The translations under genes and the position numbers were made by a program. The notes beneath the pieces are model-generated. The model was not told where the DNA came from and ran no database searches. It saw nothing but the letters and a program-made list of their open reading frames with translations. This document shows, one piece after another, positions 7,430 through 46,823 of a stretch of 64,000 nucleotides of DNA. Location of the stretch: positions 62,001 to 126,000 of the forward strand of contig NZ_JAHBGD010000005.1 of the NCBI RefSeq assembly GCF_018390605.1, given 5' to 3'. The stretch is from Ancylobacter defluvii. GTDB taxonomy: Bacteria; Pseudomonadota; Alphaproteobacteria; Rhizobiales; Xanthobacteraceae. Positions within the stretch are counted from its first letter, which is position 1; every line of letters starts with the position of its first letter.

Positions 7430-8608
7430 ATGAATACGAGCCCTTCCGCAGCGTCCGCGCGGGCGGAGACGCGATCTGGTGGCCTGCGCGTCGCCGTTCT
7501 GCTGGCGCTGCTGGCGATGGCGGGGCCACTCTATATCGACATCATGCCCTCCATCGTCGCGGCGTTGCGGAGCGAATACGGCCTCAGCGCCGCGCAGGCA
7601 GGCTTCGTCGCCGCCAGCAACGGCTATGGCTCGACGCTTGGTGCGCTGCTCGCCCTGTTCATCGTGTCGCGCCTGCCCTGGCGTCCGCTGGCGGTAGCGC
7701 TGCTCGTCGCCCTCGTCGCCACGGACGTCGCCACCACCTTCGTGCGCAGCATGGAAATGCTGGTGGTCGTGCGCGCCACCCATGGCGTGATCGGCGGGAT
7801 GCTCGTTGGCCTTTGCTACGCGTTGATCGCGCGCACCGGGGATCCCCGCCAAGGCTTCGGCATTCTTTTCGTGTTTCATTTCGCCTTTGGCGGCCTTGGC
7901 GTGTTCGCCTCCACCTTCCTGGCGCCCTTCATGACGCATGGCGTGGTCTTCCTGGTCCTCGCCGCCTTCGGCGTGCTGGCGGTGCTGGTCATCCCGTGGC
8001 TGCCGGCCTTTGAACCGCCGCCGCGGGAAGCCGGCAACCTGGGGAGCCATCCTGTCTTGCTTCCGGCCCGAAGCCTCATGCGGATCGGCGGGCTGTTCCT
8101 GTTCCAGGCCGCGAATCTCGGTCTCGGTGCCTTCCTGATCGGCATCGGCGCCGATCTCGGCCATGCGGCGAGCTTCTCGGGCGCGGCAGTGGGACTGGGC
8201 CTGTGGGCCGGCGTGCTGGGAGCCCTTACCATGCTGATGCTCAGCCGCACCTTTGGCTGGCGTCCGATGGTGCCCATCATTCTGGCGGCCGGCTTGAGCA
8301 AGGCGCTGGTCGGCTTCGGCGACGACCCGATGGTGTTCGCCGGCGCCATCGCCTCGGTGTTCCTTACCATGGCGATGGCGCTGCCCTATGCCTTTGCGCT
8401 CTGCGCCGAGGGCGACAGCAGCGGCCGCTCCGCGGTGCTGGCCGGCTTCGCCTCTAAGCTTGGCCTGTCCACCGGCCCGGCGATCGGCGGCCTTGTCTAT
8501 GCGTTTGGCGCCGAAGCGTTAATCGCTACAGCGATCGCCACCGTGATGGCCGCCGCGGCGCTGTTTGCCCTGTCGCTGCGTCCGCAGGCAGCCCGCCAAC
8601 CTGCCTGA
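7430..8608 (+). CDS. MFS transporter
   Basis: A 392-residue major facilitator superfamily permease with about twelve hydrophobic segments, beginning RVAVLLALLAMAGPLYIDIMP and showing a central linker near residues 195-210. It resembles 12-TM sugar or drug exporters of the DHA1 type, but specificity cannot be read from sequence. It is divergent from the winged-helix/NB-ARC regulator, with only about 110 bp between the preferred starts, so both probably share a regulatory region. The ATG at 7430 is the first Met of the frame; no strong Shine-Dalgarno sequence is visible. Confidence 0.85.
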   Translation: MNTSPSAASARAETRSGGLRVAVLLALLAMAGPLYIDIMPSIVAALRSEYGLSAAQAGFVAASNGYGSTLGALLALFIVSRLPWRPLAVALLVALVATDVATTFVRSMEMLVVVRATHGVIGGMLVGLCYALIARTGDPRQGFGILFVFHFAFGGLGVFASTFLAPFMTHGVVFLVLAAFGVLAVLVIPWLPAFEPPPREAGNLGSHPVLLPARSLMRIGGLFLFQAANLGLGAFLIGIGADLGHAASFSGAAVGLGLWAGVLGALTMLMLSRTFGWRPMVPIILAAGLSKALVGFGDDPMVFAGAIASVFLTMAMALPYAFALCAEGDSSGRSAVLAGFASKLGLSTGPAIGGLVYAFGAEALIATAIATVMAAAALFALSLRPQAARQPA

Positions 8609-8693
8609 CGGAGATTTTGCAGTTTTTTGCACCTTTGCACGCGGTGCATCGGCTAATTCATGCAGGCCGTCAGTTGGCGGCTGGAGAGTGGCC

Positions 8694-9185
8694 ATGACCA
8701 AGGCGATCGAACCAGCATTGCGGTGGGATTCATCCGCCGACGGGATGGAGGTCGATTCGCGCGAGTTCGAGCTTGTCCGCCAGGCAGTGGTGGAAGCCTT
8801 CGACAGCGGAGAAGACTGCGAGATCGAGCAAATGATTCGGCTGCGCAGCGTGTTGCCGGTACGGCGGCGCGTGCAGGTGCGGCTCGAGCGCGATCTCGAT
8901 GACAGGGTCGCCGTGGTACATATCTCCGTCGAGCGCGACGGCGAACCGATAGCCGCGTGGACATGGACGCTGGCGGAAGCCGGCGACGGCGGACATTCGG
9001 CCATGGTCAATGCCATCAACGCCTTCACCGCGGTCGTTCTGCATGCCGAGGCCGTCAAGCGGCAAGTCGCACGCAACCAGTTGGCGGAGGCTTCGGGCTC
9101 GATCGAGCACATTCTCGCCAACATCCACCGCGTCTGGCAGCATGTCGGCGGCCTGTGCCGGGAACGCTCCGCGCCGGTCTCTTAA
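8694..9185 (+). CDS. hypothetical protein, 163 aa
   Basis: The start is the ATG at 8694 after GGAGAGTGGCC. The protein is soluble, without signal peptide or membrane segments. It has an acidic N-terminal half (ALRWDSSADGMEVDSREFEL), a beta-rich middle (RVQVRLERDLDDRVAVVHIS) and a helical C-terminus (AEASGSIEHILANIHRVW). I do not recognise a family. It stands alone between the MFS gene and the convergent phosphoketolase. Composition and codon use look like a real gene. Confidence 0.6.
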   Translation: MTKAIEPALRWDSSADGMEVDSREFELVRQAVVEAFDSGEDCEIEQMIRLRSVLPVRRRVQVRLERDLDDRVAVVHISVERDGEPIAAWTWTLAEAGDGGHSAMVNAINAFTAVVLHAEAVKRQVARNQLAEASGSIEHILANIHRVWQHVGGLCRERSAPVS

Positions 9186-9393
9186 GCCAACAAGAGGGCC
9201 TTAGGCACGGCGGCCCGATCCCGCTGCACCGAGCCGGCACTGGGAAAGCGGGGACTGATCAGGTGCCGGAGCCATCTCGGGTGCTGAACGGTCACACCAT
9301 GGCTGGGCGACGAGCCCGCTGCTGCGGCCCGCCCACGCCGCGCAACATGTTCGATACCTGCCCGTATCGACGCGACCAGGTGAAGACGAGGGA

Positions 9394-11751
9394 TCAGGTT
9401 GACCAGTGCCAATTCCGAATCTCGGGCATGTCCTCTCCATGATTGCGGACGTAGTCGTGGTGCTCGGAGAGCTCGCCCTCGAGAGTCGAGATGGCGTCGG
9501 TGGTGCGACCGGCGAGACGGGGGATCCGCTGCAACGCCGCGATGGCGAGATGAAAGCGATCGAGCTCGTTCATCACCGTCATGTCGAACGGGGTCGTCGT
9601 CGTGCCTTCCTCGCGGAAGCCATGCACGTGGAAATTCAGATGGTTGCGGCGCCGGTAGGTCAAACGGTGAATGAGGAAGGGGTAGCCGTGATAGGCGAAG
9701 ATCACCGGCCGGTCGGTGGTGAACAGCCGATCGAACGCCTCGTCGGTAAAACCGTGCGGATGCGTCGAGTGCGACTGTAGCGTCATCAGATCGACCACAT
9801 TGACCACCCGGATGCGCAGGTCGGGGAATGCCGCGCGCAAAAGATCGACAGCAGCCAGCGTTTCAAGGGTCGGCACATCGCCGACGCACGCCATCACCAC
9901 GTCTGGATCCGCGCCCTCATCGCTGGATGCCCACTCCCATATGCCGGCACCGGCACGGCAATGGGCCTCGGCCGCCTCGGCGGAGAGCCACTGCGGCTGC
10001 GGCTGCTTGCCGGCCGTGATCACGTTGATGCGGTTCCAGGTACGCAGGCAATGGTCGGTGACCCACAACAGGCTGTTGGCATCCGGCGGGAAATAGAGAC
10101 GGACGATGTCGGCCTTCTTGTTGGCAACGAAATCGGCGAAGCCGGGGTCCTGGTGGCTGAAGCCGTTGTGGTCCTGGCGCCAGACATGCGAGGTCAACAG
10201 ATAGTTCAGCGAAGCAACGGGCTTTCGCCAAGGCAGCTCCGCCGAGGTCTTTAGCCATTTTGCATGCTGATTGACCATCGAGTCCACGATGTGGATGAAC
10301 GCCTCATAGCAGGAGAATAGCCCGTGACGCCCGGTCAGCAGGTAGCCTTCGAGCCAGCCCTGACAGAGATGCTCTGAAAGAACCTCCATGACGCGGCCCT
10401 GCCGGGCAAGGCCCGTATCGTAGGGTTCTATGGCTTCCATCCACACGCGGTTCGTAACCTCGAACACCGCGTCCAGTCGGTTCGAGGCCGTTTCGTCCGG
10501 CCCCACGAGGCGGAAATTTCGTGCGTCTTCGTTGAGGCGGATGACCTCCCGAAGATAGCGCCCCATCGCCCGCGTCGCCTCGCCCGTTGATGTGCCTGGC
10601 CGGCCGATGTCCAACGCCAGATCCTTCCAGTCGGGCAGGACAAGCTCCTTTCGCAGCAGGCCGCCATTCGCATGCGGCAGCGCGCCCATCCGCTTCTCGC
10701 CGCGCGGCGCCAGCGCTTGCAACTCCGGCCGCAGGGTGCCGTTTGCGTCGAACAGTTCCTCCGCGCGGTAGCTGCGCATCCAGTCTTCGAGGATGCGGCG
10801 GTGTGCGGCATCTCCGCGGGCGTTGGAGACCGGCACCTGATGCGAGCGCCAGAATCCCTCCACCTTCTTGCCGTCGACCTCGCGCGGGCCGGTCCAGCCT
10901 TTGGGACTGCGCAGCACGATCATCGGCCAGCGCGGACGTTCGATGTCGCCGGTGGCGGAACGCGCCGCACGCTGGATCTCGCGGATCCGGTCAAAGGCGT
11001 TGTCGAGTGTCCCCGCCATCGCCGCATGCATGGGCATCGGCTCGTGCCCCTCGACGAAGATCGGCTCGTAGCCATAGCCGGTGAACAGCGCACGCAGCTC
11101 GTCATCCGACATCCGGGCGAGCAGGGTCGGATTGGCGATCTTGTAGCCATTGAGGTGCAGGATCGGCAGCACCGCGCCGTCGAGCGCAGGATTGAGGAAC
11201 TTGTTCGAATGCCAGGCGGCCGCCAGTGGCCCGGTCTCCGCCTCGCCGTCGCCGATCACGCAGGCGACGACGAGATCGGGATTGTCGAAGGCGGCGCCAA
11301 AGGCATGAACCAGCGCATAGCCGAGCTCCCCACCTTCGTGGATCGAGCCGGGTGTCTCGGGCGCCACATGGCTCGGCACGCCGCCGGGAAACGAAAACTG
11401 GCGGAACAGCTTGCGCATACCCGCCTCATTCGGGGTGATGCCCGGATAGATCTCGCTATAGGTTCCTTCCAGCCAGGTGTTGGCCACCATGGCTGGACCA
11501 CCGTGGCCAGGACCGCAGACATAGAGCACGTCGCAATCGCGTTCGCGGATGATCCGGTTGAGATGCGCGTAAATGAAGTTGAGGCCCGGCGTGGTGCCCC
11601 AATGGCCGAGCAGACGCGGCTTGACGTGCTCGGCCGCGAGGGGCTCGCGTAGCATGGGATTGTCGAGCAGGTAGATTTGTCCGACCGACACGTAGTTAGC
11701 CGCGCGCCAATAGCGGTCGATGGCTTCCAGTTCGGTCTGTCGGACGGTCAT
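9394..11751 (-). CDS. xfp: phosphoketolase
   Basis: This ThDP-dependent enzyme splits xylulose 5-phosphate and/or fructose 6-phosphate with phosphate, giving acetyl phosphate plus glyceraldehyde 3-phosphate or erythrose 4-phosphate. Its 785 residues match the family. Diagnostic blocks are EGGELGY (139-145), the ThDP/Mg site GDGEAETGP (167-175) with downstream HLNG, and [11 protein letters not shown] at 49-59. The ATG at 11751 follows GAGAGGAAA. No acetate kinase or phosphotransacetylase gene is adjacent, so the acetyl phosphate must be handled by enzymes elsewhere. Specificity for xylulose versus fructose phosphate cannot be settled here. Confidence 0.95.
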
Positions 11752-32368: not shown

Positions 32369-33328
32369 GTGAAAAAAATCGCCCTCGAGGAGCACTTCAT
32401 CACGCCGGGCCTCGAGCCTCACATGCGGGCGGCGATGCCAAAATTGTCGCCGGAGAGCGCTGACCACCTTTGCCAGCTTATGTTGGATTTTGGTGAGCGC
32501 AGGCTCGCAGCCATGGACGCGGCCGGTGTCGACACCGCCGTTCTGTCCATTTCCGGGCCGGGGGTGCAGGCCGAGCCCGATGCGGCGACGGCCGTGAAGC
32601 TCGCCCGTGACGCCAATGACCGACTTGCGGCGGAGGTCGCCAAGCAGCCGGCCCGGTATCGTGGCTTCGCCCACCTGCCTATGCAGGACGTGCCCGCAGC
32701 CATAGCGGAGCTGGAGCGTTGCGTATCTGAGCTCGGCTTTGTCGGCTCGATGGTCAATGGCCACACCCACGGCGTCTATCTGGACGACCCGGGATACGAT
32801 CCGTTTTGGGAACGCATGCAGGCCCTCGATGTGCCGCTCTACCTGCACCCGACGGATTCCTTCGTGCTGCCCTATGTGCTTGAGGGCGCGCCGGAGCTTC
32901 TGAAGCCGACTTGGGAGTGGAACTTCGAGACCTCCTCCCATTTCCTGCGGCTGCTTTTCGCCGGCGTGTTCGACCGCTTTCCCAGGCTCAAGATCATTCT
33001 CGGGCACATGGGTGAAACGATGCCCTACCATCTGTGGCGCTTCGACAGCCGCGCTGCGCTTATCATTGGCAAGCGCCCGCTCAAGGAGGCTCCCTCCTTC
33101 TATCTGAAGCGAAACTTGTTCGTGACGACGTCCGGCCAGTTCGACAACGTTCCGTTGATCGCGGCGCTCTCTGCCCTCGGAGCCGACCGTGTGCTGTTCT
33201 CCATCGACTACCCATATGAGGACTCGATCACAGCCGGACGCTTCTTCGACACCGCGCCACTCGACGAGATGACGCGCGAAAAGGTTGCTCGCCTCAACGC
33301 GATCTCCGTCATGAACATCAGGATTTGA
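32369..33328 (+). CDS. amidohydrolase of the ACMSD/resorcylate decarboxylase group
   Basis: A 319-residue metal-dependent TIM-barrel protein of the amidohydrolase_2 family. It aligns along its length with gamma-resorcylate and 2,3-dihydroxybenzoate decarboxylases: ALEEHF at the N-terminus (metal ligands E7 and H9), LYLHPTD, ILGHMGETMPYHLWRFD, and SIDYPYED with the catalytic Asp. It probably decarboxylates a hydroxy-aromatic or related carboxylic acid without oxygen. The start is GTG at 32369 after CTGGAG. It is divergent from the sulfatase gene; a functional link is plausible but unproven. Confidence 0.85.
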   Translation: MKKIALEEHFITPGLEPHMRAAMPKLSPESADHLCQLMLDFGERRLAAMDAAGVDTAVLSISGPGVQAEPDAATAVKLARDANDRLAAEVAKQPARYRGFAHLPMQDVPAAIAELERCVSELGFVGSMVNGHTHGVYLDDPGYDPFWERMQALDVPLYLHPTDSFVLPYVLEGAPELLKPTWEWNFETSSHFLRLLFAGVFDRFPRLKIILGHMGETMPYHLWRFDSRAALIIGKRPLKEAPSFYLKRNLFVTTSGQFDNVPLIAALSALGADRVLFSIDYPYEDSITAGRFFDTAPLDEMTREKVARLNAISVMNIRI

Positions 33329-33424: not shown

Positions 33425-34222
33425 TCAGTCGACGGCCAGCGACATGCCCAGCCGCACTTCGTGCTCGATCAGCTTCCAGATCTCATCGACGAGCTGCACG
33501 AAGGCCAGGCTGCGCTTGACCTCCAGATCGCGCGGGCGCGGCAGGTCGATCGGTATCTCGGCGCGAATCTGGCCGGGCCGGGCGCTGAAAACCACCACCC
33601 GATCGGAGAGAAACACAGCTTCGTCGATCTGGTGGGTGATGAGGACGACGGTCTTCTTCTGGCGTCCCCAGATGCTCAGCAACTCGGCCTGCATGATCTC
33701 GCGCGTCTGGGCGTCGAGTGCGGCGAATGGTTCGTCGAGCAGCAGGATGCGCGGATCGACCGCCAGCGCCCGGGCGACATTGACGCGCTGGCGCATGCCG
33801 CCGGAGAGCTGATGCGGGTAGTGGTGCTCGAAGCCGCGCAGGCCGGCGAGCTCGATGAAGCGCCGGGCGATCGCCTCCCGCTCGGCGCGCGCCATGCCGC
33901 CGATGGCGAGGCCATAGCCGACATTCTCGATCACCGTCTTCCAGGGCAGCAGCGAGTCGTTCTGGAACACCATGGCCCGGTCCGGCCCGGGCCGGGAAAC
34001 CGCGCGGCTGCCGACGGCGATCGTGCCCGAACTGGCGGGCATCAGCCCGTCGATGATCCGCAGCAGCGTGGACTTGCCGCTGCCGCTCGCCCCGACGATG
34101 GCGACGAACTCGCCGTCCTTCACCGTCAGGTCGATGTCGCGCAGGGCCTCGACGCTCGGCTTGCCGGTGCGCAGGAAGGTCTTGTTCACGCCGCGGATAT
34201 GGAGAGTGGCGTCGTCGGTCAT
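33425..34222 (-). CDS. NitT/TauT-type ABC transporter ATP-binding protein
   Basis: A 265-residue ABC ATPase of the nitrate/sulfonate/taurine class, with Walker A GASGSGKST, signature LSGGMRQRVNVARAL (the GGMRQR form is typical of this class), Walker B ILLLDEPFAALD and the His loop LITHQID. It is the last gene of the leftward catabolic operon and would energise the adjacent permease together with the binding protein at 40180-41151. Confidence 0.92.
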   Translation of the reverse strand: MTDDATLHIRGVNKTFLRTGKPSVEALRDIDLTVKDGEFVAIVGASGSGKSTLLRIIDGLMPASSGTIAVGSRAVSRPGPDRAMVFQNDSLLPWKTVIENVGYGLAIGGMARAEREAIARRFIELAGLRGFEHHYPHQLSGGMRQRVNVARALAVDPRILLLDEPFAALDAQTREIMQAELLSIWGRQKKTVVLITHQIDEAVFLSDRVVVFSARPGQIRAEIPIDLPRPRDLEVKRSLAFVQLVDEIWKLIEHEVRLGMSLAVD

Positions 34223-34274
34223 GCGGTCCTCGCGCAGCTGAGGCAGAACGGAGCGGAAGGGCGGCGGATGGGGT

Positions 34275-35069
34275 TCATTCCTGCCTCCAGGGGGCGAGAC
34301 GGCGTTCGATCGCCTCGAACACCAGGCTGCCGATCAACCCCATGGCGCCGAGCAGCATGACATAGGCGAGCAGCGTCGCCGTATCGAAGGTCTGGCCGGC
34401 GGCAAGGATGGCAAAGCCGAAGCCGGCGAACGAGCCGAAGAACTCCGCCACCACGATGCCCACCAGCGCGCGCGCCCAGGCGACGCGGATGCCGCTGACG
34501 ATGAAGGGCAGCGCATAGGGCAGGGTGACGGTGGTGAAGATCTGCCATTTGCTGGCATTGAACGAGCGCGCAGCGTCGATGAGGCCGCGATCGGTGGAGC
34601 GCAGGCCGGTCTCGGTGGTCACCAGCACGGGGAAGACCGCGATCAGCACCACCAGCACGAATTTCGAGGCGAAGCCGAGGCCGAGCCAGGCGATGACCAG
34701 CGGCGCCAGCGCCACGATCGGCACCGAGTAGAGGGCGGTGAGCATGGGGCCGGCCGTCAGCGACATCAGCCGGCTGGACGACAGCAGCAGCCCGCCGGCT
34801 ATGCCGACCAGCACGGCGACGGGGAAGGAGGCGCCGACGGCGAGGCAGGTGGCGAGCCCGTTCGTCCACACGGCGCCCGAGCGGACTTCCCGCATCAGCG
34901 CTTCGAACACCTCCTGCGGCGGCACCAGCAACAGCCGGTTGGTGACGAGGGTGGCGGTGAGCAGCTCCCACACGATCAGCACGAAGGCGATGGAGAGGAG
35001 CACCCGCACCAGCGTGGCGCTGCGGGTCTCGCGTTCCAGAAAGGCATAAGTTTTCTGCCAGAAGGTCAT
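34275..35069 (-). CDS. NitT/TauT-type ABC transporter permease
   Basis: A 264-residue inner-membrane permease of the SsuC/TauC type with six or so hydrophobic segments. The EAA-like coupling loop is in the second half (STDRGLIDAARSFNASKWQI). Its start overlaps the upstream dehydrogenase-like gene's stop by 4 bp, tying transport to catabolism. It lies 52 bp ahead of the ATPase gene. Confidence 0.92.
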   Translation of the reverse strand: MTFWQKTYAFLERETRSATLVRVLLSIAFVLIVWELLTATLVTNRLLLVPPQEVFEALMREVRSGAVWTNGLATCLAVGASFPVAVLVGIAGGLLLSSSRLMSLTAGPMLTALYSVPIVALAPLVIAWLGLGFASKFVLVVLIAVFPVLVTTETGLRSTDRGLIDAARSFNASKWQIFTTVTLPYALPFIVSGIRVAWARALVGIVVAEFFGSFAGFGFAILAAGQTFDTATLLAYVMLLGAMGLIGSLVFEAIERRLAPWRQE

Positions 35070-36175
35070 GTGAAGCTCCTGCCGGCGCCGGCCCGCGGTT
35101 CGAAATGGCCCTCGCGGGCGCGATGCCGGATCGCTTCCGGTGTCATGGTGTCGAGGCGCAGCAACGGCAGTAGCGCGTTCGCTGCCCGATAGTCGCGCCC
35201 GATCGCGGCGCTGGCGAGCGCGATGGTTGCATCGTGCACGGGCGTCGTCACGCCGGCTCCCCGGCCGATCTCGGCGGCGAAGACGAGGCCATAGCTGAGG
35301 TCTTGCGCGAGATAGCGATGGTCGATGCTGCGTGGCCCCTTCGGTCCGCGGCCATGAGCGTGGAGATGGGCGTTCATTTCCGCCATCGAGCCGAGCGGAA
35401 TGCGGAAGGAGCGCTGGAAGTGCTCGTTCACGCCGTGGATGGTCGCGCCATAGGCCGATGCCACGGCGAGCCGCTCGGCATCGAGCGCTTCCATCAGCCG
35501 GCCGATCGAGCCCGTGGTCTGCTCATAGGGCGCCCAGCTTTCGCCACGCTCGATGCGCGACAGGTTGAGCAGGCAGACCGGCACATGGAACACCGGATTG
35601 GCGTTGGACAGCAGGGCGATGGCGAGCGCGTCCGGCCGGGCTTCGAAGTGCGTGCCGGTCAGTTCCCGGCACAGCGACAGCGCCGATGGTTCGAGCCGTG
35701 AGGGCATCACCGCGGCTTCGATGCGCGGGCGCAGCGTGCGGATATCCACGGCGAGCGGTCCGGTCTTGTGGGCGGTGGCGACCGTCGTGTTCCATGACAC
35801 GATCGGCAACTCGACGCCACGCGCGGCGAGCAGTTCGGAGAGGTAGACGGCGCTCATCGAATGCGCCGCGCCGATGAGAAACGGCACACCGGGTGCCAGC
35901 AGCGGAGCGGCGGCGCGTATTACCGGCACATGGCCGCCGGCATCGACGGCAAGCAGCACGGCGTCGGCGCCGTTGATCGCGTCGGCGAGGTCGCTGCCGG
36001 CGGCAACATCCCATTCGCCGGCGAGAGCACCGATGGAGATCAGGCGAGGCGGCTGCGGCAGGCCCGCAGTGCCGGCGCCGGAGGGCGACCAGATGATCGG
36101 CGCATGCCCGCGTGAGGCGAAGAGAGCGGCGCTGGCGAGGGCCATGGCGCCGGAGCCGAGGATGGCGATCTTCAT
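35066..36175 (-). CDS. NAD/opine dehydrogenase-family protein
   Basis: A 369-residue two-domain protein. The N-terminus is a Rossmann fold (KIAILGSGAMALASAALFAS, a GxGxxx(G/A) nucleotide-binding turn) and the C-terminal half matches the octopine/nopaline dehydrogenase helical domain, with ALLSNANPVFHVPVCLLN carrying the likely catalytic His. Opine dehydrogenases interconvert amino acid plus keto acid and secondary-amine dicarboxylates with NAD(P)H. The start at 36175 overlaps the PrpD-like gene by 4 bp. In this operon it may open a secondary amine imported by the ABC system; that is inference. Confidence 0.82.
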   Translation of the reverse strand: MKIAILGSGAMALASAALFASRGHAPIIWSPSGAGTAGLPQPPRLISIGALAGEWDVAAGSDLADAINGADAVLLAVDAGGHVPVIRAAAPLLAPGVPFLIGAAHSMSAVYLSELLAARGVELPIVSWNTTVATAHKTGPLAVDIRTLRPRIEAAVMPSRLEPSALSLCRELTGTHFEARPDALAIALLSNANPVFHVPVCLLNLSRIERGESWAPYEQTTGSIGRLMEALDAERLAVASAYGATIHGVNEHFQRSFRIPLGSMAEMNAHLHAHGRGPKGPRSIDHRYLAQDLSYGLVFAAEIGRGAGVTTPVHDATIALASAAIGRDYRAANALLPLLRLDTMTPEAIRHRAREGHFEPRAGAGRSFT

Positions 36176-37584
36176 GAGCCGCGAACCTCCGCGGGGAAGA
36201 GGCGGCTGAGATCGTCGACCGCCTCTATACCCCGCAGCCGGGCGAGCAGGTCGGAGGCGATGGCCGGCGACATGAACGGCGCGACATTGCGCCTGAACTT
36301 GGCGTCGAGCAGGTCGTCCGGCATCGGACGCATCGGCTTGCCGGTCGATGCCGCCTGAAAATGCGAGACCTCGCGGCCATCGGCGGTGGTGATGGTCACG
36401 CGCGTGGCCTCGGTGCCGTTGCGGGCTTCTTCCTCGTCGTCGAACAGGTCGGCACCCACCATCTCCACCTTGGCCATCTCCCGATGGACGGCGGGATCGG
36501 CGACGGTTTCCGCCGTCAGCAGGTCGGCGGTGAACCGCCCATGCGCAAGGATGCAGCCGAGCGCGAAGGGCATGGAGAACTGCGCCTGCGTGACATTGGC
36601 GGGGAGCGGGAAAGCCAGATTGCGCAGGATATGGCCGGTGACCTCGCAGCGCACGCGTACCACCTCGCCGACCTCGATATCGTGCCGCTGCAACAACGCC
36701 TCCAGCGACTCCGCCGCCGCCTGCACCGAGGAGCACGCCGGATAGAGCTTGAAGGAGGTGCCGGGCGCCTCGAAGCTGCCGAGCCGGGCAAGCGGCAGGC
36801 TCGACCATTGGCCGCCATTGATCACCTCAATCAGGCCGCGCGGGCCTTCAAAGGCGTCGAGCGGGCCTTCCGCGCCGTCGCGGGCGAGCAGGGCGGCGCG
36901 CAGGCCGGTCTCGCCGGCACGGGCGCACAGGACCGGCTTCATGTCCGAGCCGACGGCGATGCGCAGCCCGCCGGCCTGCACCGCGGCGATGGCGAGGGCA
37001 TGGGCGGTGCGGTCGGCATCGAGGCCGATCAGCCGCGCCACCGCTGCCGCGGCGCCGATGGGGCCGAGCACCGCGCTGTTGAACCAGCCCTTGTAGAACA
37101 GGCTGTCGCGATCCTTGCGATAGGGGGCCTCGGACAGGCATTCGGCGAGGGTTCGTATGACTTCCGCGCCGACGGCGAAGGCGCCGATGAGCTCCGCCCC
37201 GTTCGCCCCCGTCTCTTCGCCCATGGCGATGAGCGCCGGATAGAGCGCCGCCGGGGCGAACACCATGCCGATGTTGAAATTGGCATCGAAGTCGAGCACA
37301 TGCGCCGCGGTAGCGTTGATGCGCGCCGCGGCCGTCGCCACCAGCCGCTCGCCGCCCGCGCCCAGCACCAGCGCGGCGCCGGGCCTGGCTTCGGCGCAGG
37401 TCTGCGCCCGCACCACGCGCGCCAGCGGCAGCGCCGAGCCGGCAAAGGCGATGCCGACAATGTCGACAAGGGCCCGGCTGGCGGAGAGGCGGGCGCTCTC
37501 GGGCACTGACGCCGCCGGCAGATCGGCGACGAAGGTGCCGAGCGTCTCGGCAATGCGCGCCGTGTCGGGACGCTGCATGCTCAT
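36172..37584 (-). CDS. MmgE/PrpD family protein
   Basis: A 470-residue member of the MmgE/PrpD family, whose characterised members include 2-methylcitrate dehydratase and cis-aconitate decarboxylase. Family features include the long all-helical domain, FDANFNIGMVFAPAALYPAL and the Cys/Ser-containing FKLYPACSSVQAAAE. No methylcitrate-cycle genes are nearby, so a role as dehydratase, decarboxylase or isomerase on an operon-specific carboxylic acid is more likely. It overlaps both flanking genes by 4 bp. Confidence 0.85.
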   Translation of the reverse strand: MSMQRPDTARIAETLGTFVADLPAASVPESARLSASRALVDIVGIAFAGSALPLARVVRAQTCAEARPGAALVLGAGGERLVATAAARINATAAHVLDFDANFNIGMVFAPAALYPALIAMGEETGANGAELIGAFAVGAEVIRTLAECLSEAPYRKDRDSLFYKGWFNSAVLGPIGAAAAVARLIGLDADRTAHALAIAAVQAGGLRIAVGSDMKPVLCARAGETGLRAALLARDGAEGPLDAFEGPRGLIEVINGGQWSSLPLARLGSFEAPGTSFKLYPACSSVQAAAESLEALLQRHDIEVGEVVRVRCEVTGHILRNLAFPLPANVTQAQFSMPFALGCILAHGRFTADLLTAETVADPAVHREMAKVEMVGADLFDDEEEARNGTEATRVTITTADGREVSHFQAASTGKPMRPMPDDLLDAKFRRNVAPFMSPAIASDLLARLRGIEAVDDLSRLFPAEVRGS

Positions 37585-38978
37585 GCGTGGGCCGCAGCCT
37601 GATGCCGCGCCGTCGCCTGCCGGCCGAAGCCCTTCTCGCCGATGACCTCACCGTCGCGGTAGACGGAGCGGCCGCGTACCAGCGTGTGCACCGGCTTGCC
37701 GGTCACCTTGCGGCCGGCATAGGGGCTCCAGCCGGTGAGGCTCAGCACGTCGGCGTCGCGGATCTCATATTCGTTGTCGAGGTCGACCAGCACCAGGTCG
37801 GCATGGTTGCCGGGTACGATGCCGCCCTTCTTCTCCAGGCCGAACAGCCGTGCCGGCGCTGCCGAGCAGGCCTCGACCACCCGCTCCAGCGAAATCTTGC
37901 CTTCGCGCGCGGCGGTGAGGAACATCGAAAGATAGAACTGGGTCGAGGGCGTGCCGGTGTGGGCCTTCCAGCCGTCGGTCCAGCCGATCTCCTTCTCCTC
38001 CCGCGTATGCGGGGCGTGGTCGGTGGCGACGATGTCGATAGTGCCGTCGTTCAATCCCTCCCACAGGCCGGGCACGTTCTTCTCCGGCACCCAATAGGAC
38101 AGGGCGTAGGAGCCCAGGCGCTGGATCGACGACCAGTCGCAGCCGAGGAACAGCGCCCAGGGGTTGATCTCGCAGGTGACCTTCTGGCCCGCCGCCTTGG
38201 CCTTGCGGATCAGGTCGACGCTGCCGGCGGTCTGGGTGTGCAGGATGTGCAGGTGGCAGCCGGCCGCCTTCTGCAGCCGCAGCAGCGTGGCGATGGCGGT
38301 CTCCCAGATCACCCCGTCATGGGCGGCATAGGCCTTGGCATAGGCAAGGGCGTCGCGCTCGCCGCGGGCCCAGAACTCCTGCTCGATCACGTCCATCAGC
38401 GCCTGGTCGTGCGGATGCACCATCAACGGCACGTTCACCGCGGCGCAGGCCTGCATGATCTCGAGGATCTTGCCGTGGTCGTGCACGCCGATCCCCGGCA
38501 TATGCGGGTAGTTGCGGCCGGTATCGACGACCATGAAGAACTTGAAGGCGGCGATGCCCTCCTGCGCCATCGACGGCACCTCGTCCAGGATGGTCGGCGC
38601 CGGGTTGAAGTTCCAGTCCACCACGGCGTCGGTCTCGTAGATGGCGAACTGCTTCTTCAAAAGATCCAGCGTGTTCGGCGGGGGGGTGACGTTAGGCATC
38701 GCGACCGAGGTCGTCACGCCGCCGGCGGCGCATTGCCGGGTCGAGGTGAGGATGGTGTCCTTGTATTCGAAGCCGGGGAGGGAGCCCTGCCGATGATGCG
38801 AATGCATGTCGATGATCCCCGGCAGCACCGCGAGACCGGTGGCGTCGATCGTCTCGGCGGCGGCCGGCTCGGTGCCGGGCTCGTAGAGGCCGGCGATCAG
38901 GCCGTCCTTGATGCCGATCGATCCTTCGAAGCGACCGCCGGGGGTCATGACGAGGCCGTTCAGGATGATGCGGTCCAT
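37581..38978 (-). CDS. dihydroorotase/dihydropyrimidinase-like amidohydrolase
   Basis: A 465-residue cyclic-amide hydrolase of the amidohydrolase superfamily. The binuclear metal centre is complete: H59 and H61 (IIDMHSH), the carboxylated Lys K146 (AAFKFFM), His near 188-190 (MVHPHD), H247 (HILHTQT) and D320 (VATDHAPH). It should open or close a cyclic amide or imide, as in hydantoinases, allantoinase and dihydroorotase; the exact ring is not evident. The start is MDRIIL at 38978, giving the usual N-terminal beta-sandwich. It overlaps the PrpD-like gene by 4 bp. Confidence 0.88.
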   Translation of the reverse strand: MDRIILNGLVMTPGGRFEGSIGIKDGLIAGLYEPGTEPAAAETIDATGLAVLPGIIDMHSHHRQGSLPGFEYKDTILTSTRQCAAGGVTTSVAMPNVTPPPNTLDLLKKQFAIYETDAVVDWNFNPAPTILDEVPSMAQEGIAAFKFFMVVDTGRNYPHMPGIGVHDHGKILEIMQACAAVNVPLMVHPHDQALMDVIEQEFWARGERDALAYAKAYAAHDGVIWETAIATLLRLQKAAGCHLHILHTQTAGSVDLIRKAKAAGQKVTCEINPWALFLGCDWSSIQRLGSYALSYWVPEKNVPGLWEGLNDGTIDIVATDHAPHTREEKEIGWTDGWKAHTGTPSTQFYLSMFLTAAREGKISLERVVEACSAAPARLFGLEKKGGIVPGNHADLVLVDLDNEYEIRDADVLSLTGWSPYAGRKVTGKPVHTLVRGRSVYRDGEVIGEKGFGRQATARHQAAAHA

Positions 38979-39013
38979 GGAAGCAATCCTTTGCACTGAC
39001 GGGGTCGAAAAGG

Positions 39014-40087
<1,074 letters not shown>

Positions 40088-40179
40088 CGGTCCGTTCCTG
40101 GGTCCGTTCCGGGCAAGGGGGGAGCGTCGGCGGGAATCGCTCCCCGCCGTCGGTTCAGTGAAAGGGAGCGCGCGCGGCG

Positions 40180-41151
40180 CTACTTCCCGGCCAGGAAGCC
40201 CGGATCGTAATAGCGTGAGAGCTCGAACTCCTTGGTGCTGTCGGGTTCGGCACCCACCGCCTTGGAGATCATGATCAGATTGGTGAGGCTCGCCGCCGAG
40301 ACCTCGAGCCCGGCACCGATCGCCTTCTGCTGCTCGACGATGAAGGCGTAGGAATCGGCGCAGATCGCCGGGTCCACCTTGGTGTAGGTGGCGAGGATGG
40401 CGATCGCCTTCTGCTTGTTGGCCGGGTCGTAGATCCAGGTCGCCGCGTCGCGCGTCGCCTGGGTCACCGCCGTGGCCGCCTTGGGATTCTTGGCCGCCCA
40501 GTCGGTATTGAGGATCAGCGGGGTCTGGAGATAGGGATCGGTATAGTCGTCGAGCACCTTCATCCCGTCCTTCTGGGCGATGGTGTCGAAGGGCGCGATC
40601 AGCAGCGCGCCGACCACCTGGCCGTTGCCGAGCGCCACGACGCGATCCTTGGAATTGGCCATCGCGACCATCTGCAGGCTCTGGGCGTCGCCGCCGCCGC
40701 GCTGGATCAGATAGCGCAGCAGATTGGCGGTGCCGCCCTTGACCCCGCCGGCCGTCACCGGCTTGCCGCTCATCTGGGCGACGCTGGTGATGTCCTTGTT
40801 GCCGATGAGGCGCAGGATCGACTTGGTGAGGATGCCGCCGGAAATGACGATCGGCGCGCCCTGATCGATGGCGCGGATGGCGAGGTCCGCCACCGAGACG
40901 CCGGCCTCGACCGAGCCGGTGGACACCGCCTGCAAGAGCGCCGGGCTGCCGGCGGCGACAAGCTCCCTCACTTCGATGCCGTGCTTGGCATAGAAGCCCT
41001 GGTCCTTGGCGATGGCATGCAGCCACAGGAGCGCGCTCGGCGCCAGCACCGCCATGCGCACTTCGGTCTTCTCCTGAGCCCGTGCGGCCGGTGCCGAGAG
41101 GATGAGCGCGGATGCCAGCACACAGCCGGCTGCCCGCAGAAATGCTTTCAT
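40180..41151 (-). CDS. NitT/TauT-type ABC substrate-binding protein
   Basis: A 323-residue periplasmic binding protein of the SsuA/THI5/NMT1-like group. A signal peptide ends near AARAQEK; mature blocks such as LWLHAIAKDQGFYAKHGIEV and GGVKGGTANLLRYLIQRGG are typical of the family. It is the first gene of the operon, while its permease and ATPase are the last two. The ATG at 41151 is chosen because it opens the signal peptide; the longer frame upstream enters the promoter. The ligand is unknown. Confidence 0.9.
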   Translation of the reverse strand: MKAFLRAAGCVLASALILSAPAARAQEKTEVRMAVLAPSALLWLHAIAKDQGFYAKHGIEVRELVAAGSPALLQAVSTGSVEAGVSVADLAIRAIDQGAPIVISGGILTKSILRLIGNKDITSVAQMSGKPVTAGGVKGGTANLLRYLIQRGGGDAQSLQMVAMANSKDRVVALGNGQVVGALLIAPFDTIAQKDGMKVLDDYTDPYLQTPLILNTDWAAKNPKAATAVTQATRDAATWIYDPANKQKAIAILATYTKVDPAICADSYAFIVEQQKAIGAGLEVSAASLTNLIMISKAVGAEPDSTKEFELSRYYDPGFLAGK

Positions 41152-41342
41152 CGTTCGTCCTCGCGCTGGACGGCCGTTCTGCCGCCTCCTCTGGATGCCG
41201 TTTCGTTGAACGGCGTGCAGATAGGGCCATATTGCGGAGATGATTTCAACGAATTTTGCCATTATGTGTCAATTTAATCATTTTGCAAAATCGCTGCATA
41301 TTTCGTAACCAGTCGGAATCTCCTTCCCCGCGGATCCTGTGA
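41152..41342. promoter_or_regulatory. divergent promoter region with palindrome
   Basis: This AT-rich gap separates the leftward catabolic operon and the IclR gene. It contains the perfect 12-bp palindrome ATTTTGCAAAAT at 41280-41291 and a second half-site AATTTTGCC near 41252. IclR proteins bind such short palindromes in divergent promoters, so this is a candidate operator for the regulator next door. Confidence 0.5.
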
Positions 41343-42116
41343 ATGAGCCGGCAGAGCCATATCCTTTCCATCCTCCAGCTGTTCGATACCGGCATGTCGG
41401 TGTGGACCGTCGAGGAGATCGCCAAGGCGCTCGGCGTTTCCGTGCGCACGGCCTACAGGACGGTGAGGGAGCTGACGCAGGGCGGGTTTCTCGATCCGGT
41501 CTCCGGCGCCGGCTATGTGCTCGGGCCGGCCTTCATCCGTTTCGATCGGGTGCTGCGGCAGAGCGATCCGCTCATCCACATTGCCACCCCGGCGATGGAG
41601 CGGCTGCTCGACGAGACCAGCCAGGAAGCGGCCGTCATCCTTTGCCGCCGCTTCAAGGACTGCGTGATGAGCGTGCACATGGTGGAGGGGCGGGAGCCGC
41701 ATCTGCCCGCGAGCTACGAGCGCGGGGCGGCGATGCCGCTTTTCCTGGGCGCGCCGGCCAAGGTCATTCTGGCCTTTCTGCCGGACCGGGTGTTGCGGGG
41801 CCTGTATCTGCGCAACGATGCCGAACTGCGCCGGTCCGGCATCGATTCCTGGCTGAGCTTCAAGGAGCAGCTCAAGCCGGTGCGGAAGGCCGGCTATGCG
41901 ATGACGCAGGCGGAGATCGGCGAAGGCCGGCTCGGCATCGCGGCGCCCATCACGCGCGATGGCCTCGTCGTCGCCAGCCTCAGTCTGGTGCTCTCGGTCC
42001 GCAGCAACAGGCCGGATGCCGATCGGATCGCACACTTCGCCGAGGGGGTGCGCCGCGCGGCCTCCGCGGTCTCGGCAGCACTCGATGTTTCCGAGCCGGG
42101 AGCGGCGCCGCGGTAA
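41343..42116 (+). CDS. IclR-family transcriptional regulator
   Basis: A 257-residue IclR-type regulator with an N-terminal winged helix (about 3-62, WTVEEIAKALGVSVRTAYRT) and a C-terminal effector-binding GAF-like domain (about 75-245). It diverges from the seven-gene operon at 33425-41151, the usual arrangement of an IclR regulator and its target. The effector is presumably the imported compound or an intermediate. Confidence 0.9.
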   Translation: MSRQSHILSILQLFDTGMSVWTVEEIAKALGVSVRTAYRTVRELTQGGFLDPVSGAGYVLGPAFIRFDRVLRQSDPLIHIATPAMERLLDETSQEAAVILCRRFKDCVMSVHMVEGREPHLPASYERGAAMPLFLGAPAKVILAFLPDRVLRGLYLRNDAELRRSGIDSWLSFKEQLKPVRKAGYAMTQAEIGEGRLGIAAPITRDGLVVASLSLVLSVRSNRPDADRIAHFAEGVRRAASAVSAALDVSEPGAAPR

Positions 42117-42641: not shown

Positions 42642-42773
42642 GCACGCAAAATATCCATATCGCCTTCATTCGTGACAGAGGCGAAATTCCCACGGCAATG
42701 TCGCTGACCTTAAGTCATTGATTTGTCGCGCGGGAACGAAAAAGCAGAAACTGGCACATGCCTTGCTTTCAAT

Positions 42774-42798
42774 ATCGTATGCACTCGATGCATGCGAT
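42774..42798. promoter_or_regulatory. inverted repeat close to operon start
   Basis: ATCGTATGCA and TGCATGCGAT are inverted copies (9 of 10 positions) separated by 5 bp. The site ends 25 bp before the ATG at 42824, a position that would block transcription or initiation. It is the better candidate for the GntR-family repressor encoded in the same operon. Confidence 0.45.
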
Positions 42799-42823
42799 AA
42801 AATCCAGAAGCAGGGACATACAG

Positions 42824-43954
42824 ATGCGCACTTCCTTCCTTACCGGCGATATCAGTCGCCGCTCCTTCCTCAAGGCCGGCGTCGCCGCTGGCGCGCTTGC
42901 CGCCACCTCCCGCTGGTCGGCGGCCCAGGCCGACGACCCCAAGGTGCTGAATTATCTGTCCTGGCCGGGCAATGCCGATCCTTACCTCGTCGAGCAGTTC
43001 GAGAAGGAAAACGGCGTCAAGATCCGCATCAAGGAGTATGTCGGCGGCGACCAGATGCTGGCCGTCATCAACCAGTCGCCGCCCGGCTCCTTCGACGTGG
43101 TGCTCGCCGATGCCGAGTACATGCACTTGCTGCATGCAGCGGACTTCGTCGAAGAGCTCGACCCGGCCGATTACCCGCTGAAGGACTATTGGCCGGAATT
43201 CCAGAAGTTCCCGCTGCACTGGTTCGACGGCAAGCTGTACGGCGTGATGACCGATTTCGGCTATCTCGGCCTGTCCTACAACACCAAGGAGTTCACGCCG
43301 AAGGAGGTCTCCTCCTATGCCGCGCTGTGGAGCGAGAAGGCCAAGGGCAAGGTTGGCTTCTTCGACTGGTATCTGCCGTCCATGGGTTCGATCAGCCTTT
43401 CCAATTCCAACCGTCCGCCCTTCGACATCGACGAGGCGCATTTCGAGGCGGTGAAGGAGAAGCTGTTCTCGCTGAAGCCGCAGGCCTCGGGCTTCTACAC
43501 CATCGCCGACATCTTCTCCTCGCTCACCAATGGCCGCGCCCAGCTGGTGCCCGGCATCGGCGAGTGGATCACCCTCGGCCTGCGGATGAACGGCGTGCCG
43601 GTCGACACCATTATCCCGGAGGAGGGCGGGCTGCAGTGGACGGAGTCGCTGTCCATCGTGAAGGGCACGCCCAAGCGCGATCTCGCCCGCAAGTTCATCC
43701 AGTACACCACCTCGCCCGAGGGGCAGGTGAAGATGGCGACCAAGGTCGACAACAAGAAGTCGATCCCCTCCATCGCCGGCTGGAAGCTGCTCAACGAGAC
43801 TATGCCGAAGGAGGCCGAAATCCTGCGCATGACGCTCACCGGCCCGAACGTGATGGACGAGTACAAGGCGAAGAAGATCCAGTTCCGCCAGTTGCCCAAG
43901 CAGCAGGAAATCTCGGATTGGAACGACGCCTGGAGCGAGTTCAAGAGCCTCTGA
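42824..43954 (+). CDS. polyamine-type ABC substrate-binding protein
   Basis: A 376-residue periplasmic binding protein of the PotD/PotF group (spermidine/putrescine-like), with VLNYLSWPGNADPYLVEQFE at the mature N-terminus. The export signal is twin-arginine: SRRSFLKAG at 11-19 followed by an Ala-rich hydrophobic stretch, which is common for alphaproteobacterial members. I start it at ATG 42824. The actual ligand may be another cationic or nitrogenous compound given the downstream enzymes. Confidence 0.9.
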   Translation: MRTSFLTGDISRRSFLKAGVAAGALAATSRWSAAQADDPKVLNYLSWPGNADPYLVEQFEKENGVKIRIKEYVGGDQMLAVINQSPPGSFDVVLADAEYMHLLHAADFVEELDPADYPLKDYWPEFQKFPLHWFDGKLYGVMTDFGYLGLSYNTKEFTPKEVSSYAALWSEKAKGKVGFFDWYLPSMGSISLSNSNRPPFDIDEAHFEAVKEKLFSLKPQASGFYTIADIFSSLTNGRAQLVPGIGEWITLGLRMNGVPVDTIIPEEGGLQWTESLSIVKGTPKRDLARKFIQYTTSPEGQVKMATKVDNKKSIPSIAGWKLLNETMPKEAEILRMTLTGPNVMDEYKAKKIQFRQLPKQQEISDWNDAWSEFKSL

Positions 43955-43981
43955 GTATCATACGAACCAAGGGGATCCGCC

Positions 43982-44911
43982 ATGACGGCCGCCTCCGTGA
44001 CGACGCGTGCCAGCGCCCTGCGGCGCTGGTCCTGGCTGCAGGGGCCACGCATGACGGGTTCCCCCGCCGTGCTGCCCTCCGTGCTCGGCCTGCCGGTGCT
44101 GCTGTGGCAGGCGGTATTCTTCGCCGCGCCGCTGGTCTTCCTGGTCGTGGTGACCTTCTGGCAGGTGAAGGCGTTCCGGCTGGAGCCGGCCTTCGTGCTC
44201 GACAACTGGTCGCGGATCCTGTTTTCCGCGACCTTCCAGCGCGCGCTGGTGCATACCTTCGCCGTCGCCGGCACGACGACGCTGCTCGCCGTCGCGCTGG
44301 CCTTTCCCGCCGCCTATACCATCGCCTTCCGGCTGAGCCCACGCAGGCGCGATCTGGCGGTCGCCTTCCTCGTGGTGCCGGTGTTCTCCAGCTACATGCT
44401 GCGCATCTATGCGTGGCAGATCGTGCTCAGCCCGGAAGGCATGATCAACGCCCTGCTCGGGCTGACAGGCATCGGGCCGCTGCCGCTGCTCGGCGGGGCG
44501 TTCTCGTTGCAGATCGGCCTGCTGACCCTGACGCTGCCGATCGCCGTGCTCATCCTCGTCTTCGCCATGGCCGGCATCGACCGCACGCTGGTCGAGGCGG
44601 CGGAAAATCTCGGCTGCCGACGGGCCCGCGTGATCATGCATGTCGTCGCGCCATCGGTCCGACCGGCCATCGCACTGGCCGCGACGACGAGCTTCCTGCT
44701 GGCCTTCGGCGACTATATCAGCCCGCTGTTCATGACCGGTTCCAAGCCGCCCACTCTCTCCATCCTCATTGTCGATACGGTGAAATCCGGCTCGCAATGG
44801 CCGCGCGCCTCGGTCATCGGCGTGGCGATGCTGGTCATGCTGGCGCTGGTGCTCGGCATCGGCCAATGGCTGTCGAGCGGTCGCGCCACCCGCCGGGAGG
44901 GGGCACGATGA
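43982..44911 (+). CDS. polyamine-type ABC permease, PotB-like
   Basis: A 309-residue permease with six hydrophobic segments of the PotB/PotH type. The coupling loop is LVEAAENLGCRRARVIMHVV near residues 200-220. It follows the binding-protein gene by 27 bp and overlaps the second permease gene by 4 bp. Confidence 0.92.
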   Translation: MTAASVTTRASALRRWSWLQGPRMTGSPAVLPSVLGLPVLLWQAVFFAAPLVFLVVVTFWQVKAFRLEPAFVLDNWSRILFSATFQRALVHTFAVAGTTTLLAVALAFPAAYTIAFRLSPRRRDLAVAFLVVPVFSSYMLRIYAWQIVLSPEGMINALLGLTGIGPLPLLGGAFSLQIGLLTLTLPIAVLILVFAMAGIDRTLVEAAENLGCRRARVIMHVVAPSVRPAIALAATTSFLLAFGDYISPLFMTGSKPPTLSILIVDTVKSGSQWPRASVIGVAMLVMLALVLGIGQWLSSGRATRREGAR

Positions 44912-45720
44912 ACCGCATCCTCGCCACCCGCCTCTCGCGCCTCGCCCAATACAGCTTCCTAGGATTGCTGTTCGCCTTCATCGCCACGCCGATGCTGGTC
45001 ATCGTCGTATTCTCCTTTGATGCCAACCGCTTCCCCACCATTCCCTGGGGTGGCTTCAGCCTCGAATGGCACCGGGCGATCCTCGCCGATTCGATGATCC
45101 GCGACGCCTTCGTCAACAGCATGCTGGTCGGGGGTGGCACGGCGGTGCTTTCGACGCTGCTCGGCTTCGCCGCCGCCTATCTGGATTTCCGCTACCGCTT
45201 CCGTCTCAAGCTCGGCTTCGTGCTGCTGGTGGCGGTGCCGCCCGCCGTGCCGGCCACCATCCTTGGCATGGCGATGCTGGCCTTCCTCTCCCGCATCGGG
45301 TTGTTCGGGCGGCTGGAGACGATCATGGCCTGCCATGTCGCCATCGCCACCTCCTTCTCCATGGCGATCATCCGCCTGCGGCTGAACGACCTCAGCCGCG
45401 ACCTCGAGCCAGCCGCCTGGAATCTCGGTGCCTCACCGGCGGCGGCGCTGTTCCATGTGGTGATCCCGTTCTGCAGACCGGCGCTGATCGCCTCGTTCTT
45501 CCTGTCGGCAGCGGTATCCTTCGACGAATTCCTCATCGCCTGGTTCGTCGGCGGCGTGCACGAGACCTTGCCGGTGCGCATCCTCAACCTCCTGCAAGGT
45601 CAAGTGAATCCGAAGATCAACGCGATCGGCGCGGTGGTGCTGGTCGTCAGCGTGGCGCTGGTGCTTCTCGCCCAACGTTTCACCGGCGTCCGGGCCGGAC
45701 GCCGCAACCCCGCTCCATGA
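44908..45720 (+). CDS. polyamine-type ABC permease, PotC-like
   Basis: A 270-residue permease of the PotC/PotI type, six hydrophobic segments, with coupling loop DLEPAAWNLGASPAAALFHV near 165-185. The ATG at 44908 lies inside the previous gene's last codons, so translation is coupled. With the first permease it forms the membrane channel. Confidence 0.92.
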   Translation: MNRILATRLSRLAQYSFLGLLFAFIATPMLVIVVFSFDANRFPTIPWGGFSLEWHRAILADSMIRDAFVNSMLVGGGTAVLSTLLGFAAAYLDFRYRFRLKLGFVLLVAVPPAVPATILGMAMLAFLSRIGLFGRLETIMACHVAIATSFSMAIIRLRLNDLSRDLEPAAWNLGASPAAALFHVVIPFCRPALIASFFLSAAVSFDEFLIAWFVGGVHETLPVRILNLLQGQVNPKINAIGAVVLVVSVALVLLAQRFTGVRAGRRNPAP

Positions 45721-45734
45721 CAAGGGAGAGCCCC

Positions 45735-46823
<1,089 letters not shown>

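Follow-up and report, generated by a model that had tools for sequence, protein, structure and literature searches.

The operon described here lies in a 64,000-nucleotide stretch of the Ancylobacter defluvii genome (contig NZ_JAHBGD010000005.1, positions 62,001 to 126,000; Alphaproteobacteria, Xanthobacteraceae), referred to below as the window. It comprises seven minus-strand genes (41151-33425) and a divergent gene for an IclR-family regulator, all confirmed as real (Table 1). Gene calls and Pfam matches bear out this arrangement as given in the original prediction, which had been made from the sequence alone; its inventory was right in the count of seven but left unnamed the COG0523-family GTPase, which is the commonest neighbour of the cyclic amidohydrolase (AHY).

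Table 1. Genes of the operon and a candidate regulatory site, in window coordinates
Feature	Position	Strand	Basis
NMT1/SsuA-type periplasmic substrate-binding protein (SBP_B)	40180..41151	-	PF09084, PF13379
CobW/COG0523-family GTPase, putative metallochaperone for AHY	39014..40087	-	PF02492 and PF07683 over cut-off
Cyclic amidohydrolase AHY, dihydroorotase/hydantoinase/allantoinase superfamily	37581..39017	-	PF01979
MmgE/PrpD-family protein, clade without the canonical catalytic His	36172..37584	-	PF03972, PF19305
Opine-dehydrogenase-family NAD(P) enzyme (ODH; octopine-dehydrogenase family)	35066..36175	-	PF02317
ABC permease	34275..35069	-	PF00528
ABC ATPase	33425..34222	-	PF00005
IclR-family regulator (IclR_B)	41343..42116	+	PF01614/PF09339
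Perfect 12-bp palindrome ATTTTGCAAAAT, candidate IclR operator	41280..41291		one match in window, none in 100 shuffles

Four junctions consist of 4-bp overlaps (GTGA, ATGA, ATGA and ATGA). The three that link the AHY, PrpD, ODH and permease genes had been recognized before, and the fourth, between the CobW and AHY genes, exists only if AHY starts at GTG 39017 and not at ATG 38978. The remaining gaps measure 92 bp (binding protein to CobW), 52 bp (permease to ATPase) and 191 bp (IclR to binding protein). The analysis of the window yielded 1 terminator-like site vs 2.9 expected, none convincing. The binding protein, GTPase, AHY, PrpD, ODH and permease all stay below the NCBIfam equivalog cut-offs, and no model exceeded its cut-off among the best 25 of 60 listed for AHY or the best 25 of 189 listed for the ATPase; as had been expected, family models point to no named pathway.

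The complete seven-gene order with its divergent IclR gene recurs in Aquabacter sp. P-9 (L106), Mesorhizobium sediminum (L119) and Aureimonas fodinaquatilis (L121), the proteins being 53-90% identical to those of the window, so the grouping reflects more than chance. The conservation of gene order proposed as a check in the original prediction was, accordingly, found, neither of the outcomes named there as refuting (an order restricted to this genome, or high identity to a known pathway) was seen, and the general picture of an importer and catabolic enzymes under an IclR regulator is supported by both protein families and conservation. The operon is not, however, one fixed set: it is a conserved, undescribed mosaic catabolic operon that joins a core to an accessory PrpD-ODH pair, the latter lying beside AHY in 4 of 42 loci, with most core loci devoid of the pair.

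Among 296 genomes of the host family, 15 others encode AHY at 81-90% identity. A contig scan with an alignment of these family AHYs gave the 42 named loci; since the scan relied on two peptide patterns, this is no census, and the family loci overlap with it, 14 of 15 apparently being the same as named ones, so that the two sets must not be added up. At preset identity thresholds and no more than 7 kb from AHY, the neighbours were CobW (37 loci), IclR (35), binding protein (27), permease (26, orthologues at 56-82%) and ATPase (26, at 60-83%); in two of the five loci without CobW (L146 and L147), AHY sits at the contig end. The hosts range from Xanthobacteraceae and other Hyphomicrobiales through Burkholderiales. 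L147, a partial match, sits in a metagenome-assembled genome (MAG) named Chloroflexota. Some MAG names look doubtful, among them those of L134 and L144, near-identical loci of environmental type on contigs of MAGs that bear the titles Bordetella parapertussis and Klebsiella pneumoniae. A phylum-wide search with AHY returned nothing above 37% apart from the window itself, and plasmid searches with ODH (262 records), AHY (1034) and PrpD (425) gave only matches below 60% identity.

The surroundings of CobW-AHY vary. Eight betaproteobacterial loci have, after AHY, a receptor belonging to a single cluster in place of the binding protein and permease of the ABC importer (its TctC identity being confirmed by Pfam in 3 of the 8). 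A Devosia MAG (L125) lacks CobW, and its AHY is preceded by a receptor of TctC/TAXI-like type and by two DUF1989 proteins; this DUF1989 pair (8569-9899), directly before AHY, is of the urea-amidolyase-associated type, below cut-off. In L115, L120 and L129, AHY is directly followed by an arylmalonate-decarboxylase/EutA-like protein with two conserved Cys residues that scores below the EutA cut-off. In a more distant locus (L105, G833), an AHY relative has a CobW neighbour, each at 45%; the importer there is Pot-like and IclR is present, as is a zinc-type alcohol dehydrogenase, and nearby RidA and alpha/beta-hydrolase genes recall Rut pyrimidine clusters. Thus, CobW-AHY is the constant heart of the system and the importer is exchangeable, because other receptors take the place of the ABC importer while CobW-AHY persists.

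The PrpD-ODH cassette occurs in the window operon and in six other genomes. Apart from the three complete operons, in Rhodoplanes tepidamans (L123) the binding-protein, PrpD and ODH genes lie next to CobW-AHY-permease-ATPase but on the opposite strand; Azorhizobium oxalatiphilum carries IclR and a binding protein-PrpD-ODH unit (L153, G851) on one contig and the core (L114) on another; and in Rhodoplanes sp. Cfx2-03, IclR and PrpD-ODH followed by a TctC receptor (L154, G824) lie apart from the core (L110). These last two units have no permease of their own. In the tree of the binding proteins (29 rows), the 6 sequences from PrpD loci fall on one side of a single branch (100/99), and so do the 7 from PrpD loci among the 37 rows of the IclR tree (99/95), where IclR_B forms a clade known only from PrpD-ODH loci. 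By contrast, the 5 PrpD-locus rows require two label changes in the permease tree (27 rows) and three in the AHY tree (41 rows); the AHYs of A. oxalatiphilum and Rhodoplanes sp. Cfx2-03 were labelled as lacking PrpD, and neither placement would make one clade. To judge from these trees, cassette and core have separate histories. The two are nevertheless linked in occurrence: the four other family genomes with ODH at 58-69% are all among the 15 with AHY at 81-90% (out of 296), a coincidence with a chance probability of 4.4e-6 if kinship is ignored and if the ODH and AHY searches are taken to cover an identical set of genomes.

The candidate operator overlaps a weak -35-like hexamer reading towards the binding-protein gene; promoter-like sites numbered 2 vs 0.9 expected and are, hence, weak. 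Similar sequences occur in A. oxalatiphilum (CTTTTGCAAAAG, L153) and M. sediminum (ATTTGCAAAT, L119), albeit not in all relatives. An inverted repeat, TTCGCA-N5-TGCGAA or a near-copy, recurs between IclR and the next gene in L115, L122, L124, L129, L131 and L136, and may be the site at which the core regulator binds.

The best solved relative of AHY over the whole chain is the L-hydantoinase 1gkr (240 bits), but the HxHxR, MPN and DHAPH motifs of AHY align with those of dihydroorotase 4yiw. AHY possesses the binuclear metal ligands and the Arg/Asn/His of the dihydroorotase carboxylate site, all invariant in 20 of 20 orthologues; in Escherichia coli dihydroorotase, the same three residues bind dihydroorotate (PMC8659124), whereas 1gkr has Ile in place of both the Arg and the Asn. 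Because the ligands and this triad are kept, the substrate of AHY probably carries a carboxylate. AHY scores below the cut-offs for dihydroorotase (TIGR00857; 247 vs 279 bits), dihydropyrimidinase (211/393), allantoinase (243/358) and ErtD (206/650), and it is not the housekeeping dihydroorotase, since two other dihydroorotases of the host genome pass the family cut-off. The GTPase combines the cobW and CobW_C domains that define COG0523 and falls below the equivalog cut-offs for true CobW (138/332 bits) and ZigA (109/600); the gene neighbourhood suggests that it may deliver metal to AHY.

The PrpD protein departs from its family in the active site. Its best solved relative is iminodisuccinate (IDS) epimerase 2hp0 (116 bits), for which His99 was suggested as the catalytic base and Tyr145 as a further catalytic residue (PMC7347537). 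In all 7 clade members, Phe occupies the place of the catalytic His, and Ala that of the second Asp in the DFDD motif, whereas both are retained in 10 of 10 other relatives; the position of Tyr145 holds Phe in 6 of 7, with Tyr retained in R. tepidamans. The assignment as an IDS-type epimerase, with its catalytic His99 and Tyr145, was dropped after this residue check. The clade-specific changes are confined to His102 to Phe (Bacillus subtilis IRG1 numbering) and the DFDD substitution; Arg100 and His151, considered as further losses, both vary among the ten other relatives. PrpD also stays below the NCBIfam cut-offs for 2-methylcitrate dehydratase PrpD (31/950 and 23/575 bits). Since the clade lacks the catalytic His and the adjacent Asp, its members are unlikely to work as ordinary methylcitrate dehydratases or iminodisuccinate epimerases, and the processing of a carboxylic acid that had been assigned to this protein becomes doubtful.

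In ODH, the PF02317 domain scores 119 vs a cut-off of 30 bits, and the best solved relative is CENDH 1bg6, at about 100 bits. The catalytic His197, Arg287 and Asp292 are in place, with the motifs present in 7 of 7 clade members, so that ODH carries the domain, the His-Asp pair and the Arg sensor of its family and may act on an opine. Asp292 is matched to what we take to be the corresponding Asp of octopine dehydrogenase. Arg287 falls on Arg324 of that enzyme (matched stretch 284-336/321-373), in which a His-Asp dyad and an Arg sensor have been described (PMC2924402). Used alone, ODH was at first a misleading guide to relatives of the operon. A first ODH-based scan of genome contigs found no relative; a search of 397 genomes of the host order gave 44% as the best other match, and none of the 20 neighbourhoods fetched from it had PrpD or the amidohydrolase of the operon set nearby. 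Across 30 genomes of the genus, no other ODH match exceeds 43% (three at 42-43% are all in other contexts), which makes it probable that the operon was acquired by horizontal transfer.

Gene content, gene order, conserved residues and the separate histories of the two parts can be read in the sequence; the direction of import, the delivery of metal and the order of the reactions are what we infer. In the reading that we prefer, with a probability of roughly one half, a widespread core is combined with a PrpD-ODH cassette that brings its own sensor and binding protein and produces the AHY substrate. The importer of the core would take up a small cyclic amide or ureide with a carboxylate, whose ring would then be opened by AHY; this binuclear-metal cyclic amidohydrolase probably receives its metal from the co-encoded COG0523 GTPase. 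IclR_B would sense, and SBP_B would bind, a related but different compound, which would enter via the same permease and ATPase and be converted into the AHY substrate by ODH and the His-less PrpD relative, in the simplest case by NAD(P)-dependent oxidation at a secondary C-N bond together with an isomerization or elimination. We place the cassette before AHY because AHY shows little change, and none that follows the cassette, in contrast to the sensor and the binding protein, both of which are exchanged along with it. Such a cassette agrees with these two exchanges, with the absence of a permease from two of the units and with the association with AHY. The original prediction had put ring opening before opine oxidation; the trees rather suggest that PrpD and ODH act on a different import ahead of AHY. 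A bolder and decidedly tentative version sees the sensor, the binding protein, the His-less MmgE/PrpD and the opine-type dehydrogenase as a mobile "adaptor cassette" through which a second family of compounds would enter a conserved, CobW-served AHY pathway, the PrpD reaction being new for its family.

Several points weigh against this reading. The substrate chemistry is something that we infer throughout; the operon encodes neither a carbamoylase nor an amidase to act on the compound with the opened ring, and PrpD might not function as a conventional enzyme at all. One gain and two losses might account for the three label changes of the AHY tree. M. sediminum and A. fodinaquatilis were found through AHY and are, therefore, no test of the dependence of the cassette on AHY, and the family-wide searches score 5-6 candidates per genome, so that orthologues can be missed. 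Furthermore, a new binding protein could likewise accompany a cassette whose enzymes act on the AHY product.

The strongest alternative is a linear pathway, as sketched in the original prediction, in which import is followed by ring opening by AHY, and PrpD and ODH then process the opened product, for example, by epimerization and oxidative splitting of an N-substituted amino dicarboxylate. The AHY-PrpD-ODH gene order with its 4-bp overlaps would suit such a sequence of reactions, as would the closest solved relative of PrpD, which acts on iminodisuccinate, an N-substituted aspartate (PMC7347537), and the EutA-like two-Cys enzyme encoded after AHY in three loci could be another isomerase of the product. 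We consider this pathway unlikely, given that the epimerase His is gone from PrpD, that the binding protein and IclR change with the cassette and AHY does not, and that cassette and AHY are encoded apart in A. oxalatiphilum and Rhodoplanes sp. Cfx2-03.

Less probable by far is the use of opine lactams, with AHY opening an imported lactam and ODH splitting the opine, whether formed in this way or imported free. The idea draws on the succinamopine Ti plasmid pTiEU6, which carries genes for an opine dehydrogenase, mmgE and hydantoinase/oxoprolinase A/B, and on the occurrence of opine lactams in tumours (PMC6733357). However, the lactam openers of pTiEU6 are of the unrelated HyuA/B type, its catabolic oxidase is of the flavin type and the role of the opine dehydrogenase is unclear there, and no ODH of the cassette level was found among the 262 plasmid records, the best listed match being 43.2%. 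A zinc-limitation set of COG0523 and a dihydroorotase paralogue, like the Zur regulons of pseudomonads in which COG0523 genes and PyrC paralogues co-occur (PMC2770081), is very unlikely, as the PyrC paralogue described for Zur regulons lacks the zinc ligands, all of which AHY keeps (Zur boxes were not searched for), the regulator is an IclR protein, an organic-solute importer is attached and the genome has the two other dihydroorotases noted above.

An Amidohydrolase-2 family gene (32369-33328, plus strand) and a sulfatase gene (32100-30289, minus strand) lie beside the operon; they were rejected as its members, with no match in the six other cassette loci. A short minus-strand frame at 30212-29958, by eye the start of an isochorismatase-type hydrolase followed by a stop, has no Pfam match at 1e-5. 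Two further importer operons flank the unit, namely, an SBP_bac_8-type ABC set (42758-46823, plus strand) and an OpuAC betaine-type set (53969-50127, minus strand).

The domain types are already known; what is new is the gene combination, the behaviour of the cassette and the altered PrpD clade. The division into a widespread core and a rarer enzyme pair with a sensor and binding protein of its own helps to narrow down the nutrient. The operon offers several handles: two paralogous binding proteins (SBP_A of core loci and SBP_B) for ligand screening; a highly conserved AHY, with motifs that point to a carboxylated cyclic substrate, as a candidate client for metal delivery by a COG0523 protein; and an MmgE/PrpD clade whose active site has been remodelled. 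One solved ligand would annotate AHY in dozens of genomes. Searches of an open-licence library that were aimed at this gene set turned up no description of it, which is weak evidence of absence as subscription journals mostly lie outside that library.

Taken one by one, the enzymes have recognizable counterparts. AHY shares the metal ligands and all three motifs with type I dihydroorotase (4yiw), from which it differs by its score below the TIGR00857 cut-off and by the importer in its operon, whereas the non-ATP-dependent L-hydantoinase 1gkr, although its best solved relative, lacks the Arg and Asn of AHY. PrpD has both Pfam domains of iminodisuccinate epimerase (2hp0), with Phe and Ala for its His and Asp. 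ODH shares the domain and the catalytic His/Arg/Asp with the opine-dehydrogenase family, but resembles CENDH only at the level given above, and its gene is linked to those of an amidohydrolase and PrpD. As in the COG0523 subgroups of Haas et al. 2009, the GTPase gene adjoins that of a metalloenzyme (PMC2770081), although neither "hydantoin" nor "amidohydrolase" occurs in the main text of that study. For the combination of these enzyme kinds, the nearest precedent is the succinamopine region of pTiEU6, where, as here, an ABC importer, an opine dehydrogenase, an MmgE-family gene and ring openers occur together, but with ring openers of the HyuA/B type, a flavin oxidase and a LysR regulator, and with no common gene order shown (PMC6733357).

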